NCBI RefSeq assembly: GCF_021390645.1
Contig: NZ_JAJEJT010000002.1
Span: 1,984,001 to 2,048,000, forward strand
Direction of reading: 5' to 3'
DNA: 64,000 nt
Source of the DNA: Paraburkholderia flagellata
Lineage (GTDB): Bacteria; Pseudomonadota; Gammaproteobacteria; Burkholderiales; Burkholderiaceae
The position numbers and the translations under genes are program-made. Below the pieces are notes generated by a model. That model worked only from the letters and a program-made list of their open reading frames with translations. It had not been told where the DNA came from and made no database searches. Shown in pieces: positions 30,137-59,689 of this stretch. Position 1 is the stretch's first letter. Each line of letters begins with the position of its first letter.

Positions 30137-30213
30137 AGGCTCGTAGCTCAGTTGGTTAGAGCACCACCTTGACATGGTGGGGGTCGTTGGTTCGAATCCA
30201 ATCGAGCCTACCA
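30137..30213 (+). tRNA. tRNA-Val (anticodon GAC)
   Basis: This 77-nt cloverleaf has acceptor strands AGGCTCG and CGAGCCT pairing fully, U8/A9, D arm GCTC/GAGC, anticodon stem CCACC/GGTGG with loop TTGACAT (anticodon GAC at 30171-30173), T arm GTTGG/CCAAT with TTCGAAT loop, and an encoded CCA end. It is a single gene with its own promoter and terminator. No integrase or duplicated 3' end is visible nearby. Confidence 0.96.
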
Positions 30214-31423: not shown

Positions 31424-32671
31424 TCAGCGGCCCGGCGCAAAGGCGTCACCATCGATCGGCAGTTCGCGCTCCGCCAGCAAATCGGCGAGGAGTTGCGCGC
31501 TGCCTAGCGCGAGCGTGAAGCCGAGCGCGCCGTGCCCCGTGTTGAGCCACAGGTTGCGAAAGTGCGTGGCGCCGATCACGGGCTTGCTGTCCGGCGTGGC
31601 GGGACGCATGCCGGTCCACGTCTGAATGGCGTCGTAGTCGCCGGCGTTGGGGAAGGTCTCGCGCGCCTGGCGCGTGAGCAGCGCGATGCGGGCGTCGTCG
31701 GCGTGCGGGTTCATGCCCGTGAGGTCGACCATGCCCGCAATGCGCAGGCGCTCGCCAAGCGGCGCGTAGACGACCTTGTGATGCGCATCCGTGACCGAGA
31801 CGCGCGGCGCGCCCTGCGCGTTCGCGCTCGGGAGCGTGAGGCTATAGCCCTTGAGCGGATAGATGGGCACGTGCACGCCGAGCGAGGCAAGCATCGGCTG
31901 ACTCTGGAAACCCAGGCACACCACGAAAGCGTCGGCTTCGATGTCCCCTTGCGAAGTTTGCGCGGCGAGCACGCGCAAACCTTTCGTTCGTAGTCCGGAG
32001 AACTCGGTGGCGAGTTGCAGATTCACACCGTCGCGCTGCGCCGCGTGGGCGAGGCCGCGCGTGAACTGATCGCAGTCGGCGGCCTCTTCGCCTGGCGTGT
32101 GGATGCCGCCCACGATCTCGCCGCCGATATGTGCAAGCGCCGGTTCGAGCGCCACACATGCCGCGCCGTCGAGCGCGTGCTGCACGCAGCCCAGTTCCGC
32201 CTGGTACTGCGCCTGGCGGCGCGCGCCGTCGAAGCCTTCCTGATCGCGATACACCACGAGTTTGCCGTTGCGCACGTAATCGAATGAAAGCGCTTCGCGC
32301 CCGGCCACTTCGTGCATGAGACGCTGGCTCAGAAAACCGAGCCCGAGCAGTTCAGCCGTGGTCGCACGGCTGCGCGCGCGCGTGCAGGCGCGCAGGAATG
32401 CGGCGCACCAGCGCCATTGGTGAGGATCGAGCCGGGGCACGAAACGCAGTGCGGCGTCGCGCGACAACAGCCATTGGGGCAGCTTGGGGAGCACCGAAGG
32501 GTCGGCGAGCGGCGCAACGTAGCTGTAGCTGAGCTGGCCGCCATTGGCGTGGCTCGTTTCGCGCGCCACGTCGGCATGGCGTTCGACGAGCGTGACCTCG
32601 TGTCCATCGCGGGCGAGCGCATACGCCGTGCTCACGCCAATCACTCCACCGCCCAAAACGCAAACTCGCAT
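31424..32671 (-). CDS. dadA: D-amino-acid dehydrogenase family (DadA-like) flavoprotein
   Basis: This is a 415-residue FAD oxidoreductase that deaminates D-amino acids to 2-oxo acids with respiratory acceptors. The start at 32671 opens with the FAD fold MRVCVLGGGVIGVSTAYALA. Family motifs are ETSHANGGQLSYSYVAPLAD, VYPLKGYSLT-type VPIYPLKGYSLTLP, WTGMRPATPDSKPVIG and LNTGHGALGFTLALG. It resembles E. coli DadA along its length. Burkholderia-type genomes often have several paralogues and no alanine racemase (dadX) is next to it, so it may not be the main D-alanine enzyme. The symbol denotes the family. Confidence 0.8.
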   Translation of the reverse strand: MRVCVLGGGVIGVSTAYALARDGHEVTLVERHADVARETSHANGGQLSYSYVAPLADPSVLPKLPQWLLSRDAALRFVPRLDPHQWRWCAAFLRACTRARSRATTAELLGLGFLSQRLMHEVAGREALSFDYVRNGKLVVYRDQEGFDGARRQAQYQAELGCVQHALDGAACVALEPALAHIGGEIVGGIHTPGEEAADCDQFTRGLAHAAQRDGVNLQLATEFSGLRTKGLRVLAAQTSQGDIEADAFVVCLGFQSQPMLASLGVHVPIYPLKGYSLTLPSANAQGAPRVSVTDAHHKVVYAPLGERLRIAGMVDLTGMNPHADDARIALLTRQARETFPNAGDYDAIQTWTGMRPATPDSKPVIGATHFRNLWLNTGHGALGFTLALGSAQLLADLLAERELPIDGDAFAPGR

Positions 32672-50539: not shown

Positions 50540-52012
50540 TCATGCCATCTTCGCGGCCATTTCGCCTAGCGTCTTCAGCGCGGCTTCGGTCTGCGCGTTC
50601 CATGGGTAGCTGTAGTTCAGCCGGATGTAGTGGTGATACTCGTTGCGCATCGAGAACATGTAGCCGGGCCCGATGGTAATGCCTTGCGCGAGCGCCGCCT
50701 GATAGAGCCGCATCGAGTCGACGCGCGGCGGCAGTTCCACCCACAGCACGTAGCCGCCTTGCGGCTCCGACGTGCGCGTGCCCGCGGGAAAGAAGCGCTC
50801 GACCATCGCCCGCATTAGCCGCGCCTGTTGCCTGTAGAAGCGCCGCACGCGGCGTAGATGGCGATCGTAGCCATCGTGGCGCAAGTAGTCGGCCAGCGCC
50901 ACCTGGGGAACCGAGGGGGTCGTGAGCGTGTTGAGGAACTTGAGCTTTTCGACCTGCGCGCGGTAACGCCCCGGCAGCGCCCAGCCAATGCGATACGAGG
51001 CCGAAAGGCTCTTCGAGAACGAGGCGCAATGCAGCACGAGGCCGCGCGTGTCGAACTGCTTGAGCGTGGAAGGCCGCGTCTGCCCGAAGTACAGCTCCTG
51101 ATAGACGTCGTTCTCAATCACCGGCAAATCGTGCGCCTCGGCAAGCGCCACGAGCCGCGCCTTGTGCGCGTCGGGCATGCGAAAACCGAGCGGATTCTGG
51201 AAGTTCGGCATCACCATGCAGGCCGCCACCTTCTGGCGCGCGAGCACCCGCGCGAGCGCGTCGAGGTCGATGCCGGTATCAGCGTGCGTGCTCACTTCGA
51301 TGGCGCGCATGCCCAGACGCTCGATGGCGTGCAGCATCGCGTAGTAGGTGGGCGATTCGACGGCCACCGTGTCGCCCGGCTTGGCCACGGCCTGCAGGCT
51401 CAGGTTGATCGCCTCGGTCGCGCCCACGGTGATGACGATTTCCTCGGGATCGACGCCTACGCCGTTTTCGGCATAGCGCCGCGCGATCTGGCGGATCAGC
51501 TCGGGGTTGCCGGGCGGCAGGTCGTCGATGAGGTTCCAGCTCGCATGGCGGCGCGCGATCGCGTTGGCGTACTGGTTGATGCGCCGCCAGGGGAACAGCG
51601 CCGGGTCCGGGTACGGCGAGCCGAGCGGCACGGCGTCCTGCGCGCCGATGCTGCGCAGCGTGGAGAGCACGAGCCGGCTCACGTCCACGTTGGCGGGCAC
51701 GGGGTGCCTCGGCGCGCTCGCGCGGCGCGGCTTGACCGCCGTCATGGCGTCCTTGTTCTGCGAGCCTTGTGCGCCCACCGCGCCGCGCCCTTGCGGCGCG
51801 CCCAAGCGCGCACGCACGAAATAACCCGATTGCGGCCGCGACTCGATCACGCTGCGGCTTTCCAGCAGCGCATAGGCGCGCAGCACCGTCTTGATGCTCA
51901 CGCCGTGCTGCTGGCTCGCGCGGCGCACGGAGAGAATGCGCTCGCCGGGGCCGAACACGCCGCGGCGCACGGCGGCTTCGATATCGTCGGCGAGTTGCTC
52001 GTAGCGGGTCAC
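50540..52012 (-). CDS. MocR-type regulator (GntR helix-turn-helix fused to PLP aminotransferase domain)
   Basis: This is a 490-residue fusion. I place the start at GTG 52012 ([20 protein letters not shown] follows the first residue), where the GntR winged helix begins; the frame extends 45 codons further without family-like sequence. The DNA-binding part is at about 1-75 ([20 protein letters not shown]). The fold-type I aminotransferase-like part contains [20 protein letters not shown] and a PLP lysine in [15 protein letters not shown]. MocR proteins sense PLP or amino compounds. It is divergent from the YdeP-type gene, its likely target, and is followed by the small winged-helix gene. Confidence 0.9.
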
Positions 52013-52202
52013 GTTCGGCTCAGGTCCTGGCGGGCGAAAGGGAGTCGGGCCACACGCGCGGCCGATCCCGGCAAGTCTATGACAAAACGCCGCAACTGTA
52101 CCCCTTGCTTTTTGGTTTTTCTGTGATCTCCGGGGGCACAGGAACACAGTAGCCTTGAGTCATCGGGCAGACCGCCCTGGAAGACGAAAAGCCAACCGCA
52201 TC

Positions 52203-54536
52203 ATGAAGAAGCCGCAAGGTCGCATCGAGCCGTATCACCACCCCGCCGCTGGCTGGGGCGCGCTCAAGCAGGTCGCCATCAACCTCATCAAGGAGAAGGT
52301 GACGGGCGGCAATTACCGCACCCTGCTCAAGCAGAACCAGCCCGACGGCTTCGACTGCCCCGGCTGCGCGTGGCCCGACCGCGAGCACGCGTCCACGTTC
52401 GAATTCTGCGAAAACGGCGTGAAGGCCGTGGCGGCGGAGGCGACCAGCAAGCGCGTGACGCCCCGGTTCTTCCAGGAGCACACCGTTAGCGAGCTGATGG
52501 CGCAATCGGACTACGAGCTGGAGCAGCATGGCCGTCTGACCGATCCGCTCGTCTACGACGCGCTGCAGGACCGCTACGTGCCGATCGAATGGAACGATGC
52601 GTTCAAGCTGATCGCGAAGCACCTCAAAGCGCTCGACGACCCGAATCGCGCCGCGTTCTACACGTCAGGGCGCGCGAGCAACGAGGCCGCGTTCCTCTAC
52701 CAGCTCTTCGTGCGCATGTACGGCACGAACAACTTCCCCGACTGCTCGAACATGTGCCACGAGGCCACGAGCCGCGGCCTGCCGGGCACGGTCGGCATCG
52801 GCAAGGGCACGGTCACGCTCGACGACTTCGAGCACGCCGACACGCTCCTCATCTTCGGCCAGAACCCGGCGACGAACCATCCGCGCATGCTCGGCGAGCT
52901 GCGCGAATGCGCGAAGCGCGGCGCGACCATCGTCTCGATCAATCCGTTGAAAGAGCGTGGGCTGGAGCGTTTCGCGAGCCCGCAGCACACGCTCGACATG
53001 CTCTCGCCCAAGGGTGTGCAAATCAGCTCCGTGTTCATCCGTCCGCGCGTGGGCGGCGACTTCGCGCTCATCAAGGGCGTGGCCAAGCGCGTGATCGAAC
53101 TCGATGACGAAGCGCTCGCGAACGGCACCGAACGCGTGCTCGACGTCGATTTCATCGCTGAGCACACGGTTGGATTCGACGCCTTCGCCGCCGACTTGCG
53201 CGCCGAATCGTGGGACACCATCGTGGCCGAAGCGGGTACGCCGATCGAAGAAGTGCTCAAGCTCGCCGATATCTACGTAAACGGCAAGGCTGTGATCTCT
53301 ACGTGGGGCATGGGCCTCACGCAGCACAAGAATTCGGTGCCGACGATCCAGTTGCTTTCGAACCTCATGATGATGCGCGGGAACATTGGCCGCCGCGGCG
53401 CGGGCCTGTGCCCCGTGCGCGGCCATTCGAACGTGCAGGGTGACCGCACGGTCGGCATCGAGGAAAAGCCCACGCAGGCGTTTCTCGACCGCCTCGGCAA
53501 GGCCTATGATTTCGAGCCGCCGCGCGAGCACGGCTATGACGTCGTGGAAACCATTCACGCGATGCTCGAAGGCCACGTGAAGGTGTTCATCGGCCTTGGC
53601 GGCAACTTTTCGATCGCCACGCCCGACACGCCGCGCACGTGGGAAGCCATGCGCGCGTGCGCACTCACGGTGCACGTGACGACGAAGCTCAACCGCAGCC
53701 ATCTGGTTCACGGCCGCGACGCGCTCATTCTGCCCACGCTCGGCCGCACCGAGATCGACCTCCAGAACGGCGTGCCGCAGGGCGTGAGCGTCGAGGACTC
53801 GATGAGCATGGTGCACATCTCGTACGGCATGAACCGGCCCGCTTCGACGAACCTGCTTTCGGAAATCGCGATCGTCGCGCGCATGGCGCACGCCACGCTC
53901 GGCAGCGACAAGGTGGACTGGCTCGACCTCGCCGCCGACTACGCGAAGATCCGCGACGGCATCGAGAAGGTGTTCGACGGCTTCGAGAACTACAACGAGC
54001 GCCTGAAGCACCCGGGTGGCTTCCACCTGGGCGTGGCCTCGCGCGATCGCGTGTGGAAAACGCCCAGCAACAAGGCGCAGTTCGTCGTGCACGCCATCGC
54101 ACTCGATACGCCCATTCACCGGGCGCGCGCCGAGCATGGTCCGCGGCTCATGACGCTCATGACCACGCGTTCTCACGATCAGTACAACACGACGATCTAT
54201 GGCCTCGACGACCGTTATCGCGGCGTATACGGCCTGCGCCGCGTGCTGTTCGCGAACCGCGAGGACATGGCGATGCTCGGCTTCGAACCCGGCCAGCACG
54301 TGGATATCACGAGCGTGTGGGACGACGGCGTGGAGCGCCATGTAGAGGACTTCATGCTCGTGGAGTACGACATTCCGCGCGGCTGCCTCGGCGCGTACTA
54401 CCCCGAGACCAATCCGCTCGTGCCGCTCTCGTCCGTCGCCGATGGCGCGGGCACGCCGACTTCGAAGTCGATACCGGTGCTGCTGAGCCCGGCGAAGGCG
54501 AACGCACCGGCCGACGCTGCGATCGCGGCAGCCTGA
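52203..54536 (+). CDS. ydeP: FdhF/YdeP-type molybdopterin oxidoreductase
   Basis: This is a 777-residue cytoplasmic enzyme (no signal peptide) of the molybdopterin bis-MGD family. It shows DGFDCPGCAWPDREHASTFE near the N-terminus, the YdeP mark in place of the usual four-cysteine Fe-S motif. Further motifs are AAFYTSGRASNEAAFLYQLF, FPDCSNMCHEATSRGLPGTV, DTLLIFGQNPATNHPRM and a C-terminal molybdopterin-dinucleotide domain (LMTTRSHDQYNTTIYGLDDR). Length is close to E. coli YdeP, which is linked to acid resistance. The reaction is unproven in the family. It is divergent from the MocR gene across 190 bp, with a hairpin downstream. Confidence 0.9.
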   Translation: MKKPQGRIEPYHHPAAGWGALKQVAINLIKEKVTGGNYRTLLKQNQPDGFDCPGCAWPDREHASTFEFCENGVKAVAAEATSKRVTPRFFQEHTVSELMAQSDYELEQHGRLTDPLVYDALQDRYVPIEWNDAFKLIAKHLKALDDPNRAAFYTSGRASNEAAFLYQLFVRMYGTNNFPDCSNMCHEATSRGLPGTVGIGKGTVTLDDFEHADTLLIFGQNPATNHPRMLGELRECAKRGATIVSINPLKERGLERFASPQHTLDMLSPKGVQISSVFIRPRVGGDFALIKGVAKRVIELDDEALANGTERVLDVDFIAEHTVGFDAFAADLRAESWDTIVAEAGTPIEEVLKLADIYVNGKAVISTWGMGLTQHKNSVPTIQLLSNLMMMRGNIGRRGAGLCPVRGHSNVQGDRTVGIEEKPTQAFLDRLGKAYDFEPPREHGYDVVETIHAMLEGHVKVFIGLGGNFSIATPDTPRTWEAMRACALTVHVTTKLNRSHLVHGRDALILPTLGRTEIDLQNGVPQGVSVEDSMSMVHISYGMNRPASTNLLSEIAIVARMAHATLGSDKVDWLDLAADYAKIRDGIEKVFDGFENYNERLKHPGGFHLGVASRDRVWKTPSNKAQFVVHAIALDTPIHRARAEHGPRLMTLMTTRSHDQYNTTIYGLDDRYRGVYGLRRVLFANREDMAMLGFEPGQHVDITSVWDDGVERHVEDFMLVEYDIPRGCLGAYYPETNPLVPLSSVADGAGTPTSKSIPVLLSPAKANAPADAAIAAA

Positions 54537-54614: not shown

Positions 54615-54980
54615 TCAGCCAGCGAGCTTTCGGAACGTTTCCAGCACCGCTTCACCCTTGAAGGGCTTCACGATCCAGCCGCGCACGCCGGCCGCCTTGC
54701 CGCGCTCCTTCATGGCAGGGCTGCTTTCCGTGGTCAGCATCACCACGTTCACCGCCGTGTTCGCCAGCTCGCTGCGGATCTTCTCGACCATCGTGAGGCC
54801 GTCCATGTTCGGCATGTTCACGTCGCTCACTACGAGCTTGACGCCCGGGTTCGAGCGCAGCTTCGCGAGCCCGTCCTTGCCGTCCACTGCCGTGTCCACG
54901 TCCAGGCCGTTCTTGCGCAGAAAGCCGGCCACCTCGTCGCGCACCGTGCTTGAATCGTCCACCACCAAAATCTTTGCCAT
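54615..54980 (-). CDS. CheY-like response regulator (last gene of chemosensory-like operon)
   Basis: This is a 121-residue receiver with no output domain. The start at MAKILVVDDSSTVRD (54980) fits AAGGAG at nine bases; the ATG three codons earlier abuts the ribosome site. All receiver residues are present: D8/D9, acceptor D53 in VVSDVNMPNMDG, T83/T84 in VVMLTTESSP and K105 in GWIVKPFKGE. It resembles the CheY proteins found with chemosensory kinases. It lies 40 bp after the larger CheX-like gene, so it is the likely phosphate acceptor of the CheA-like kinase and substrate of the CheX-like proteins. Confidence 0.93.
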   Translation of the reverse strand: MAKILVVDDSSTVRDEVAGFLRKNGLDVDTAVDGKDGLAKLRSNPGVKLVVSDVNMPNMDGLTMVEKIRSELANTAVNVVMLTTESSPAMKERGKAAGVRGWIVKPFKGEAVLETFRKLAG

Positions 54981-55020
54981 GCTGTTCATCTCCTTCGCGC
55001 CGCGTATGGCGCGTCTTTGA

Positions 55021-56007
55021 TCAAAATAATTCGAGTTCGCCGCTGGCCTGCTCTTCAACGGCAGCGGCCGCGGCCTGCGCGGCCGTCTCGTCAAACCCTT
55101 CGCGCGACCAGCCGAGGCTGAACACGAACCGTTGGTCTATCACCACTTCGCGGCCCGTATTCGGGCACGCGAGCCGGTACTTGATGCACAACTGCGGATT
55201 GTCGGAGCCGAACGACAAGTAGCGCCGCCGATGATTGATGAGCAGCGGCACCTGCACCTGCGCGCGGCCCCAACCCGCTTCGTCGGCAGCGCGTGCGTTG
55301 CCCAGATAGCGGTTGCGAAACGCACCCCACACGAGATTCGTGAGTTCGGCGAGCACGCCGTTCACGTCGCGGAAGTCGCTCGCTTCGTCGCGGCCCGCGC
55401 GCGGCGGCAGCAGTTCGATCAGCGGCGTCTCCTCGGTTTGCATCAGGAGCCAGCCGCGGCACCACGCCGTCTCGATCGGGATGAGCGTCAGCACTTCGCC
55501 GAAGATGATGCGGTCGCGCACGATGCTCGGCGTGTCCCAGTTCACTTCGAGACTGGGAAAGAGGCCGCGCAGACGCCCGAGCGTCATGTCGGTGATGCCG
55601 TCCACGAGCGGGTCCGGGTAGTCGTGCGAGAACACGTGCGCTTCGAGCGCCGCGATCAGCGTTTCAGGATCGCTTTCGTGCCAGCTCGCGCACGGCAAGC
55701 GGCGCAATGGTTCGGGCAATGCATCGGCGTGCTCATTGGCTGCGCGCCGCAACACGACCGGCAGTTCGGGGCGCTCGGCTTCGAGCGCGACGGCCACCGC
55801 CGCTGCCGCTTCGAACGAGCCGCCAAAGTCGTCGCCCAGCAGCACGCCGCCCAGATCGTAGTGCGTCTTCAGCGCCGCCGAGAGCGCTTCGCGCCGCACC
55901 GGCACGCACACGCAATCGTGTGCGGCTGCGGTTTGCGCAATCGCCTCGGCACGCGCCGTATCACTTTCCAGCAGCAACAGCTTGCTGACTGGCTTGTTCA
56001 CGTTCAT
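55021..56007 (-). CDS. Two-domain protein: degenerate receiver plus CheX-like phosphatase domain
   Basis: This is a 328-residue protein. The start at 56007 (MNVNKPVSKLLLLESD) follows AAGGA at five bases; a TTG seven codons earlier overlaps the previous stop. Residues about 8-125 look like a receiver whose key residues have eroded (ESD for the acidic pair; no Ser/Thr after PELPVVLRR; no conserved Lys). Residues about 150-310 resemble CheX/CheC and contain the phosphatase signature E-x2-N-x3-G (ELTNLVWG, E221/N224/G228), though the Asp/Ser four residues before the Glu is Gly. It ends with SGELELF, almost identical to the tail of the neighbouring gene. Function is inferred from motif and context. 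Confidence 0.8.
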   Translation of the reverse strand: MNVNKPVSKLLLLESDTARAEAIAQTAAAHDCVCVPVRREALSAALKTHYDLGGVLLGDDFGGSFEAAAAVAVALEAERPELPVVLRRAANEHADALPEPLRRLPCASWHESDPETLIAALEAHVFSHDYPDPLVDGITDMTLGRLRGLFPSLEVNWDTPSIVRDRIIFGEVLTLIPIETAWCRGWLLMQTEETPLIELLPPRAGRDEASDFRDVNGVLAELTNLVWGAFRNRYLGNARAADEAGWGRAQVQVPLLINHRRRYLSFGSDNPQLCIKYRLACPNTGREVVIDQRFVFSLGWSREGFDETAAQAAAAAVEEQASGELELF

Positions 56008-56024
56008 GTTTCCTTTCTCTGCAT

Positions 56025-56558
56025 TCAAAACAATTCGAGTTCACCTGCGCTGTCGTGTGCTTCGACGGCAGCGGTACTCGCCACGAAATCGAGCGGCGCC
56101 TGCGTGCACACGCACAGCGTGGCGCCGAGCCGCACGTCGTGATCGATCGTGAGCGCATACGACTGCACGTAATCCGGCTTCAATTCGCGCAGATACGGCA
56201 GGCATCCGCTGCTGAGCGCGTAGGGCGTCGACATGCCGAGGTCGGGAAAATGCTCGACCAGTTGCTGGTTCATCGCCCCGCAGCACAGGTTGCCGAACTC
56301 CATGAAGCATTCGGTGAGCGCGCGCGACGCATCGCCCACGTAGTAGCGCTGCGTGCGCTCGTCGTCTTCGAAGTGCAGGAGTAGCAGCAGGCGGAACTGC
56401 ATCGACGAAATCGTCAGGACGACCAGGTGCTCGCCGTGGGGCGCCTCGCCCGTACGAGGCTCGATTTCGCAACTGTGCTGGGCGTCGGTCACGAGCCGCA
56501 TGCGCGCGGCCGCGAAAAAAATCCGCTCGATGCTGTCCTTCGCGTGCGTGCCGATCAT
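56025..56558 (-). CDS. CheX-like CheY-phosphatase candidate
   Basis: This is a 177-residue single-domain protein. Its ATG overlaps the stop of the MCP-like gene (ATGA), giving translational coupling. It contains the CheC/CheX/FliY signature E-x2-N-x3-G ([16 protein letters not shown]87/N90/G94), with Glu instead of Asp/Ser four residues before. A hydrophobic strand [20 protein letters not shown] precedes it. The C-terminus is [10 protein letters not shown], sharing the last residues and nearly the last 18 bases with the next gene. The expected role is dephosphorylation of the CheY-like partner. The family call rests on the motif and location. Confidence 0.78.
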
Positions 56559-57316
56559 GCGTGCGCCCCGGCGCGCGTCGTTTCGAGCTGGTGATGCATC
56601 TGTTGCGACGATGCCTCCACGCTCGCGAGCGTCGCCGCGATCATCTTGCCGCCCGCCTGAATGTCCTGGAATGTCGCGGCCGTGATCAGGTCGTTGCGGT
56701 TCAGGCTGTCGCGATAGCTCTTCGAAAGTTCCTGCGAGCGCGTGGCGAGCGAACGCACCTCGCCCGCCACGATCGAGAAGCCACGCCCCGCCGCGCCCGC
56801 GCGCGCCGCTTCGATCGAAGCGTTGAGCGAGACGATGAGCACATGGCTCACGATCGACGACAGTTCCTGGTTCTTCTTGTGCATGTCGTTGTTCTGCGCC
56901 ATTAGCGAGATCATCTGCTCGTGCCAGCGCTCGAACGTCGACGACATGAGCTTCAGCCGCGAGGCCTCGCTCGCAATGCGCGCAGAGTGCTGCATGGCAT
57001 CGTCACGCTGCGCGCGCTCGCTGGCGAGCGCCGCTTCGAGCGCATCGGCCACGGACCGGCGCTGTGCGAGTTCTGCGCGCAACGATTCGATTTGCGCGAC
57101 CAAGGCTGCGTGTTCACGCGCCGCGTCTTCCTGCTGCGCCGTGTGGCGCGTTTCGGCCTGTGCAAGCGCGTGAGCGTGCGCCGCTTCCTGCGCACGCGCC
57201 GCATTTGCCGCCTGCGTTTGCGCACGCTTGTGCCACGCCGCGACCACGCCGGCTGCCAACGCGACGATAGCCGCGCCTTCGATTAAATACGGTAAGACCA
57301 CTGCCACCCCCGCCAT
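56555..57316 (-). CDS. MCP-like signalling protein lacking a sensory domain
   Basis: This is a 253-residue protein with a single N-terminal membrane segment (about 8-27, [20 protein letters not shown]), an Ala/Gln-rich coiled coil (about 30-125) and a compact receptor hairpin (about 150-195: [20 protein letters not shown] and [13 protein letters not shown]). The usual tip residues before SLNA (IAxQTN) are replaced by VSHVLIV, and only about 60 residues follow, so the methylation helices are mostly missing. There is no periplasmic domain and no HAMP. It starts 3 bp after the kinase stop and overlaps the CheX-like gene. Probably it is a scaffold or internal signal relay for the kinase (inference). 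Confidence 0.85.
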
Positions 57317-57319
57317 GCG

Positions 57320-59689
57320 CTAGCCCGCCAGCGCTTCCTCTTGCTTTGCCTGCGTTGCGTCCGCCATCTTCACTGCCCATTGCTGCGGCAAACGCACGAC
57401 GGTCTCGAAATGCCGGTAATCGGCGCCCCGGCGCTCGTCGGTGAAACGCAGTTCGATTGCACCGCCCTCGCGTTCGAGGAAATCGCGCACCGCGTCCATG
57501 CCCACGCCGCGGCCCGAGACTTCGGTCACGTTCGTGGCCGTCGAAAAGCCAGGGCGGAAAATGAATGCCGCGATCGCCTCGTCGCTCACCGCTTCATACG
57601 CCTGAAGCCAGCCGCGCTCCACCGCGATGCTGCGAATGCGCGCGAGCGCGAGGCCGCGGCCGTCGTCGGCGAGCGTCATGCACAGTGCGCCGTTGTGCAC
57701 GTTGACATCGATGTCGATGTGGCCCGACTCGTGCTTGCCAATTGCGCGGCGTTGCGCCGGCATTTCAATGCCGTGGTCGAGCGAGTTGCGCAGCAGATGC
57801 ATGAACACGTTCTTCACCGTGCCGGCAGCCTCGCTGCGCAGGCGATAACCGTTGTCCTCGATCTTCACCACCGGTTCGACCTTGCCGAGCTCCTGAGCCA
57901 GCGAGGGCAGCGAGCCGGTCACGCCCGCGAGCGCATCGGCCACCCGCTCGGTGCCGATCGCGTGCAGCGTGGTGCGCAGTTCGGCGCGCATCGCGCGAAG
58001 TGCGGGCAGGTCGTTGTCGTCGGTGCGATCGACAATGCGCAGCGTCTGTTCGATCAATTCGCGCGTGACGGTGAGGCTCGCCGTGCCGCTCGGCGCGCCA
58101 GCCGCACGCGGGCCGCGCCCAAGGCTCACCTCGTTGATGTTCGAATAGTGCTCGAGCGCCGCCTTCACACGCTCCAGATCGGCGATCAGCGCCTGCTGGT
58201 CCCACGTGTGGCTCGTGTCTTCGCGGCGCAGCGCGTCGTAGCGCTGCTCGACTTCGTGCACCACGCCCGTGAGATGCTGCAGGCTGTACGTGCGCGCGTT
58301 GCCCTTGATTGTGTGCATGTTGCGGAACAGCGCGGCGATCGCGCTCGTATCCGCGCAGTCGTGCTGGCGAATGATGTGCTCGTTCTCGTGAATGAAGCTC
58401 GTCGAACTATCGACGAAATGCTGGAACTTCTCCTCGCTCACCGCGAGAATTTCGCCGATCATTTCGAGGCGGCGCTTTTGCTCGCCGGCTTCGGCCGCGA
58501 GTTCGCGCAGCTCCGTCACGTCGCGCACGCACAGCATGAGGCGCACGACCACGTCGTTTTCGTCGGTGATCGCCGACCAGCTCAGGTCCAGCACCTTCGC
58601 ACGGCCATCCGGCAGCGTGCGCGTGATTTCATTCACGAGCAGGTGCTGATTGAACGCGAAGTTCACATCGTCTTCGCCAAGGCATGCGTGCACGGCGGCG
58701 TCGATCTGCGCGAGCGTGTCGGCGTCGAGATCCGTACGCGAAAACACCAGGTCCATCAGCGAGCGGCCCGCAATCTCGTTCGTTTCGAAGATTGCCTCCA
58801 GATACGCCGAATATTCGTTGTGAATCGTCGCGCCTTCGACCACCGTGAGAATGCCCTGCTGCATGTTCTGCAGCATCGCCTGAATGTCGGCGGTCTTGCG
58901 TTTGAGCTGCGCCGAACTGTGCTGGATCTTCTCGATCATGCCGTTGAAGGCGACGATCGAATGACCGATTTCGTCCATGCGGCCCACGGGCACGCGGCGC
59001 GTGAAGTCCTGGCTCGACGCGATTTCGCTCATCATGGCCTGCATGTGCGAAAGCGGGCGCGTGATCTGGCGGTACAGCAGCGCGCCGATCAGCGTGAGCA
59101 GCAGCACCGCGCCGCCCGTCACGCCGGCAATGGCGCTCGTCGTGGTGTCGAGCGTACTGTTGAGCGTGCGGATCGCGTCATCTTTCTGGCGGTTCTTTTC
59201 CACGCGCATCGTCGTGACGATACCTTCGAGTTCGTCGCGATACTGCGCGACGTTCGCGAAAAGATAGGCCTGTGCGAGTTCGTTCTTGCCGCCCGCCTTC
59301 ATCTTCGCTGTGTCATCGATCGCGGAGAAGTAGTTCGCGAGGCTTTCCTGCGCCTGCGAGACGAGGCCTTCCTGCGCGTGGCTCGCTGCCGCCTTGCGTT
59401 GCACGTCGAGCGCGGCGCGTAACGCCGCTTCCTTGTCCTTGAGCTCGTTCTGCGCGAGCGACGCGACCGTGGCGTCGGGTGCGTAGACGAGTGTCATGGT
59501 GGCGAGCTGCACGTCTTTCACGAGCGCCACGAGATCGGATGATGCGAGGGCGCTCGGCACAACGCCCTGGGTAACCTGGCGGACGTCGCTGGCGCTGTGG
59601 CGGGCCTGATAGGCCGCGTAGCCGCCGATGGCGGACAGCGCGACGAACATCAGGACGATGAGTAGCGTGATGCGGTGACGAATGGTCAT
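57320..59689 (-). CDS. Membrane-bound CheA-like histidine kinase with receptor-type sensor, HAMP, PAS and Hpt
   Basis: This 789-residue protein joins a chemoreceptor front end to a CheA-type kinase. TM1 is at about 8-27, a periplasmic four-helix-bundle region at about 30-185, TM2 at about 187-207, HAMP at about 208-260 and PAS at about 270-395. The Hpt-like domain has H459 in FRNMHTIKGNARTYS. A dimer/linker region precedes the CheA P4-type ATPase (N-box HLLRNSLDHGIEMP, G-boxes LADDGRGLALAR and FRPGFSTATNVTEVSGRGVG). It ends soon after, so the CheW-like P5 domain of CheA is absent, as is any receiver. It is first in a five-gene operon. Confidence 0.92.
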   Translation of the reverse strand: MTIRHRITLLIVLMFVALSAIGGYAAYQARHSASDVRQVTQGVVPSALASSDLVALVKDVQLATMTLVYAPDATVASLAQNELKDKEAALRAALDVQRKAAASHAQEGLVSQAQESLANYFSAIDDTAKMKAGGKNELAQAYLFANVAQYRDELEGIVTTMRVEKNRQKDDAIRTLNSTLDTTTSAIAGVTGGAVLLLTLIGALLYRQITRPLSHMQAMMSEIASSQDFTRRVPVGRMDEIGHSIVAFNGMIEKIQHSSAQLKRKTADIQAMLQNMQQGILTVVEGATIHNEYSAYLEAIFETNEIAGRSLMDLVFSRTDLDADTLAQIDAAVHACLGEDDVNFAFNQHLLVNEITRTLPDGRAKVLDLSWSAITDENDVVVRLMLCVRDVTELRELAAEAGEQKRRLEMIGEILAVSEEKFQHFVDSSTSFIHENEHIIRQHDCADTSAIAALFRNMHTIKGNARTYSLQHLTGVVHEVEQRYDALRREDTSHTWDQQALIADLERVKAALEHYSNINEVSLGRGPRAAGAPSGTASLTVTRELIEQTLRIVDRTDDNDLPALRAMRAELRTTLHAIGTERVADALAGVTGSLPSLAQELGKVEPVVKIEDNGYRLRSEAAGTVKNVFMHLLRNSLDHGIEMPAQRRAIGKHESGHIDIDVNVHNGALCMTLADDGRGLALARIRSIAVERGWLQAYEAVSDEAIAAFIFRPGFSTATNVTEVSGRGVGMDAVRDFLEREGGAIELRFTDERRGADYRHFETVVRLPQQWAVKMADATQAKQEEALAG

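Follow-up and report, generated by a model that had tools for sequence, protein, structure and literature searches.

Gene content of the operon

The sequence analysed here, referred to as the window, is a stretch of 64,000 nucleotides from the 9.0 Mb genome of Paraburkholderia flagellata (contig NZ_JAJEJT010000002.1, positions 1,984,001 to 2,048,000). It contains an operon of five genes, identified as open reading frames (ORFs) that form a single run on the minus strand from window position 59689 to 54615. In order, they encode a membrane-bound CheA-like kinase, an MCP-like protein that lacks a sensor, two CheX-type proteins, here called CheX-1 and CheX-2, and a CheY-like response regulator. 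The junctions, in gene order, are a 3 bp gap, a 4-bp ATGA overlap, and gaps of 17 bp and 40 bp, and both the leftward run and its spacing are as described in the first-pass annotation of this DNA, which was made from the sequence alone. The operon seems to be related to the chemotaxis systems of bacteria but not to have been described before. Pfam searches of the five genes and of seven neighbouring ORFs found no CheW gene with a sensory MCP and, in agreement with the first-pass annotation, no CheR or CheB; the seven neighbours matched no chemotaxis family of any kind. The seven places in this genome that match the CheW family all lie outside the operon.

The kinase (789 aa; 57320..59689, minus strand, as are all operon features below) matches the Pfam families 4HB_MCP_1 (residues 1-159), HAMP (204-256), Hpt (432-510) and HATPase_c (626-757) and has two hydrophobic segments, at about residues 1-29 and 183-207. 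The proposal that the receptor is fused to a CheA-type kinase is therefore borne out, with sensor, HAMP, Hpt and ATPase domains in one protein. Among 22 diverse kinase orthologues searched with Pfam (E≤0.01), Hpt and HATPase_c were present in all, and HAMP and 4HB_MCP_1 in 21. A C-terminal CheW-like (P5) domain was found in none of the 22, nor was CheW among the 16 families matched at this threshold. The transmembrane architecture with HAMP, Hpt and CheA-type ATPase domains and no CheW domain thus stands, but in the kinase of the window the PAS domain originally listed with them does not reach the threshold. Pfam PAS (PF00989) was matched by 4 of the 22 kinases and GAF families by two. None matched the P3 dimerization domain (Pfam H-kinase_dim), though this is a domain that HMMER often misses, according to an excerpt of a survey of chemosensory systems (PMC10782961). 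The best NCBIfam similarity of the kinase was to CheA, far below the cut-off of the model, and was strongest along the ATPase region. Residues invariant in the 22 aligned kinases were H459, N635, D675-G677, G679 and G726-M731, which include the nucleotide-binding motifs. H459, the putative phospho-accepting histidine, lies in LFRNMHTIKGNARTY, and its codon, computed from the gene start, is at 58313..58315. Among the best 120 relatives listed for the kinase, the closest that have a name are Paraburkholderia, accompanied by some Burkholderia sp. and Trinickia. In one locus (L072) the kinase is short and near the contig start, and in another (L085, 4483-7645) it is divided between two overlapping frames, possibly because of a sequencing error or because the gene is broken.

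The MCP-like protein (253 aa; 56555..57316) consists of one N-terminal hydrophobic segment (residues 1-29), a coiled coil and an MCP tip with changed positions (Pfam MCPsignal, 144-235). This upholds the earlier description of an MCP without a sensor, as a Response_reg match (6e-24) does that of the last gene product as a CheY-like receiver. In the tip, in Tsr numbering, the 120 aligned MCP-like proteins have other residues at the positions of F373 and N376, while those at I377, L380, N381, E385 and R388 are largely retained. A 15-residue stretch of the tip and a 10-residue stretch downstream are nearly invariant in the same alignment. In the latter (56642-56671), F216, Q217, D218 and Q220 are found in 119 or 120 of the 120 proteins; it resembles the CheZ motif FQDLTGQ, but with the glutamine out of register.

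CheX-1 (177 aa; 56025..56558) has no match in Pfam or NCBIfam, including Pfam CheX at its cut-off, and a search of the PDB by sequence found no homologue. Its identification as a CheX was based on a profile comparison and on the predicted fold of an orthologue that is 55 % identical to the window protein. CheX entries were the best Foldseek and VIA rows for the AlphaFold model of this orthologue, which is only 12-13 % identical to the CheX of Borrelia and Thermotoga. The CheX signature E-x2-N...P is in register with that of other CheX proteins; E87 and N90 are conserved in 120 of the 121 aligned sequences, and P112, together with E or D at position 83, in all 121. CheX-2 (328 aa from its ATG; 55021..56007) matches Pfam CheX (1.7e-6; 28.4 bits, cut-off 27) and carries E221-x2-N224 and P254, with E221 and N224 present in 69 of 69 aligned sequences. 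The pair of CheX-like proteins had been recognized before, but a receiver-like segment at the N-terminus of CheX-2 (about residues 8-125; 55633-55986) had been overlooked. It was read by eye, has no Pfam receiver match and, again by eye, lacks a clear acid pocket. The CheX-2 frame is shorter in two loci, L056 and L057, at 213 aa, and its match begins at residue 128.

The CheY-like protein (121 aa; 54615..54980) is a single-domain response regulator with an acid pocket at D8/D9, and with D53, T83, K105 and, at the Y106 switch position, W102; these roles and the Escherichia coli numbering are presumed. It is the least diverged of the core proteins defined below, with a mean distance of 0.21 compared with 0.44-0.60 for the kinase, MCP-like protein and CheX-1. 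Among the 71 receiver places in this genome, its nearest relative is the CheY encoded between CheB and CheZ (43 %).

A C-terminal tail shared by both CheX proteins

Both CheX proteins of the window end in GELELF (codons at 56028..56045 in CheX-1 and 55024..55041 in CheX-2), a feature overlooked in the first-pass annotation. Of the 6926 ORFs in 120 loci from Burkholderiales, 187 have G-x-[LM]-[ED]-[LMF]-F at the C-terminus, and every one is a CheX-1 (119) or a CheX-2 (68). Conversely, every CheX protein of the operon has the tail (187 of 187); L079, with a weak CheX-1 match, no operon and no tail, is not counted here. The residues preceding the tail are variable. In the whole P. flagellata genome, a degenerate DNA version of the tail pattern matched only these two CheX genes. 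The tail was absent from all 30 control CheX loci, drawn from elsewhere in the phylum, of which 29 were readable (in L191 no CheX frame could be read, and it was counted as tail-less). The 30 were those retrieved out of a phylum sample with matches in 80 of 249 genomes.

In the AlphaFold model of the CheX-1 orthologue alone, residues 170-179 are below 50 in predicted local distance difference test (pLDDT) score. When CheX-1 and CheY of the same locus were modelled in tandem, the low stretches were 167-173 and 183-190, the block 171-180 had a mean of 61, and a strand was predicted at 177-178. This predicted gain in order is a hint that the tail may dock on CheY.

Distribution and conservation

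A CheX-1 profile matched 141 of 299 Burkholderiaceae genomes (10 of 25 genera) and, in a sample of the order, 17 of 399 Burkholderiales genomes (14 of 158 genera). Named carriers include Paraburkholderia, Trinickia, Pandoraea, Cupriavidus, Ralstonia, Burkholderia and Caballeronia, and the genera with CheX-1 include plant-associated and clinical species. As all loci were found via CheX-1, they are silent on how frequent the other genes are without it.

The kinase, MCP-like protein, CheX-1 and CheY are found together in 118 of 120 Burkholderiales loci (38 of 40 in one set and 80 of 80 in the other, which consists of named loci), though the two sets overlap in part and some loci are probably from the same species, so that the counts are not independent. 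All five genes are present in 67 loci, 51 lack CheX-2, one lacks the kinase (L080, where it is missing within the 10-kb stretch fetched) and one has CheX-1 only. The operon therefore has a core of four genes and an optional fifth, CheX-2. Across the tree, which was midpoint-rooted and used without inspection of support values, loci with and without CheX-2 are interspersed. Gene order was taken from L004-L088, and presence alone was counted in the other 80 loci. The commonest order, kinase-MCP-CheX-1-(CheX-2)-CheY, is found in several genera; CheY precedes the MCP gene in six loci from one clade, and the kinase is last in two. In L076 (10595-13846) and L077 (3895-7140) the kinase, last in the operon, is 1083 and 1081 aa, respectively, with a longer front part. 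Across 38 loci, the four core proteins have correlated pairwise distances, with r of 0.67-0.91, in each case higher than in 999 permutations. The operon is not a chance arrangement, since several genera share its order and 118 of the 120 loci its core gene set, and the expectation that the order would recur in other genomes proved correct.

Proposed mechanism and output

The reading that we favour, with a probability of about 0.55, is a CheW-independent phosphorelay from the kinase to the CheY-like protein, with CheX phosphatases possibly recruited by their tails and an output that is most likely swimming motility. A signal at the periplasmic four-helix sensor would pass through HAMP and a PAS-like linker to the CheA-type ATPase, which would phosphorylate H459 of the Hpt domain, and the phosphoryl group would then move to D53 of the CheY-like protein. 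CheX-1, joined by CheX-2 where present, would dephosphorylate the phosphorylated form (CheY-P) via the E-x2-N motif. The GELELF tails may be docking peptides, most likely for CheY itself; CheZ, for comparison, binds CheY by its C-terminal end. The coiled coil of the MCP-like protein would serve not as a sensor but as a membrane-anchored hub for the soluble parts, and CheY-P would act away from the operon.

A motility output is favoured, though unproven, because all 141 CheX-1-positive Burkholderiaceae genomes carry FliM, compared with 91 of the 158 CheX-1-negative genomes (Fisher p 8e-23, in a test that ignores phylogeny). In the order sample, FliM was found in 17 of 17 CheX-1-positive genomes, a figure that includes the genome of L079 (G597), which lacks the operon, and in 267 of 399 genomes overall.

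Several observations count against the favoured reading. Beyond its neglect of phylogeny, the FliM test called positives by CheX-1 alone, and several of the listed FliM-negative genomes are small. Most FliM-positive genomes of the order sample have no CheX-1 (267 compared with 17), and FliM is present in three of the four listed CheX-1-negative genomes of the same genus. A FliA-type promoter is not consistently placed upstream of the kinase, and the alpha4-beta5-alpha5 face of the operon CheY, which is conserved, is unlike that of the flagellar CheY of this genome. As to docking of the tail, the tandem model was given without coordinates and the partner of the tail is not visible in it. Only 5 of its 52 alignment rows were tandems, two further residues below pLDDT 50 have no location and could fall in the tail, and the tail is no longer the chain end in the tandem, which by itself may raise confidence.

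Two further clues to the output were examined and rejected. To score FliA (sigma-28) sites, 112 upstream regions were compared with TAAA-N14-16-GCCGATAA. Best scores of 9, 10 and 11 of 12 were obtained 43, 11 and 1 times, compared with 21.1, 2.4 and 0.4 expected from mononucleotide shuffles. However, the sites shown shift position from one related locus to the next and the regions do not count as independent samples, and this was not accepted as evidence. Shared neighbours revealed no output gene, as no widely shared flanking gene was found in 40 diverse loci beyond the five families and their presumed shadow frames. The widest flanking clusters, named by eye, were a LysR-like regulator (13 of 40 loci) and an ABC-transporter-like ATPase (7 of 40).

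In the window, the operon is adjoined by a molybdopterin oxidoreductase gene on the plus strand (52155-54536), which is not widely shared, with a GntR-aminotransferase regulator beside it (50540-52147). Further away are a tRNA-Val at 30137, called by both ARAGORN and Rfam, and a tRNA-Ala (ggc) at 31642-31731, called by ARAGORN and not listed by Rfam at the gathering score.

The strongest alternative, which we consider doubtful, retains the same kinase-CheY-CheX chemistry but has CheY-P control a diguanylate cyclase or PAS protein in trans, and so cyclic di-GMP, biofilm or polysaccharide. The precedent is PdcABC of Burkholderia thailandensis where, according to a review passage, phosphorylated PdcC inhibits the cyclase PdcA, to whose PAS domain it binds, and PdcC is dephosphorylated by PdcB, a CheC/CheX protein. 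The conserved output face of the operon CheY, unlike that of flagellar CheY, and the lack of a shared output gene nearby fit this alternative as well. However, no cyclase, and specifically no PAS-GGDEF protein of the PdcABC type, is found among the five genes using Pfam, and the FliM association points elsewhere. Modules that resemble Pdc by eye (response regulator, CheC-like and cyclase-like) were seen in other genomes of the family (L214, L211, L212 and L220). These are separate from the operon; receivers are 29-34 % identical (8 loci) and the four CheC-like proteins inspected have no tail.

We consider it improbable that the operon is an accessory to the canonical array, with the MCP-like protein entering or disturbing receptor arrays and CheX draining canonical CheY-P to tune ordinary chemotaxis. 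The tip residues retained at the presumed Tsr positions I377, L380, N381, E385 and R388, the canonical CheB-CheY-CheZ set and seven CheW-domain places of this genome, and the FliM in all 141 CheX-1-positive genomes would suit such a role. However, the aligned MCP-like proteins have other residues at the positions of F373 and N376, a CheZ is already present in the canonical pathway, and the operon has a kinase of its own and a CheY that has diverged less than the other three core proteins. That GELELF is instead a general C-terminal motif, such as a clamp-binding-like or protease-adaptor peptide, is very improbable, as its likeness by eye to the clamp-binding consensus, QLxLF, is outweighed by its confinement in this genome to these two genes, its occurrence in a single signalling operon on a pair of diverged proteins, with no other ORF in the 120 loci carrying it, and the rise in tail confidence in the model with CheY.

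A bolder extension of the phosphorelay reading, which we put forward tentatively, is that the operon represents a distinct CheW-independent chemosensory class across Burkholderiales, in which the kinase would be the receptor, the MCP stump the hub, and the two CheX proteins would be recruited by one GELELF code; this pathway would give the flagellar motor a second input.

Relationship to known systems

In the excerpted survey (PMC10782961), every chemosensory system has a receptor, CheA, CheW and CheY, a CheW domain is core in all of the CheA surveyed, and CheA is recognized by HATPase_c together with CheW. A kinase without P5 therefore falls outside its set. The operon shares with the canonical CheA-CheW-MCP system an Hpt domain and CheA-type HATPase, an MCP tip, CheY and a CheX-type phosphatase. 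It differs in having no CheW and no P5, a sensor in the kinase, a sensor-less MCP, and no CheR or CheB among the five genes. It fails the definition of the survey, yet probably works like such a system.

By analogy, PdcABC is the nearest characterized counterpart. In both, a small response regulator has a cognate CheC/CheX-type phosphatase and stands apart from canonical arrays, but PdcABC, as described in the review passage, has a GGDEF cyclase and no kinase or MCP. The CheX of Borrelia and Thermotoga shares the predicted fold and the E-x2-N...P signature of CheX-1, which has the conserved C-terminal GELELF in addition. CheZ likewise has a C-terminal end with a last Phe, VDDLLASLGF in this genome, but belongs to another family (Pfam CheZ) and has a different end sequence. 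VC0377, a CheX-family gene of Vibrio cholerae, was mutated in a motility suppressor, according to an excerpt of PMC8789113. Excerpts of PMC5789663, PMC3639386 and PMC12421958 had no bearing on the operon. No published system with the same five components, and no description of the operon or of ELELF, was found in the open-licence literature, which is weak evidence as subscription papers mostly lie outside that scope. New here, relative to the first-pass annotation, are the shared C-terminal tail, the division into core and optional genes, the FliM association and the PdcABC analogy.

In its excerpts, the survey (PMC10782961) treats it as a defining property of chemosensory systems that CheW and P5 couple receptors to CheA. 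A conserved operon with CheA-type chemistry, an MCP tip, CheX and CheY but no CheW would show which parts of the system work alone, and the way in which CheX phosphatases locate their substrate could be tested simply through the GELELF tail.

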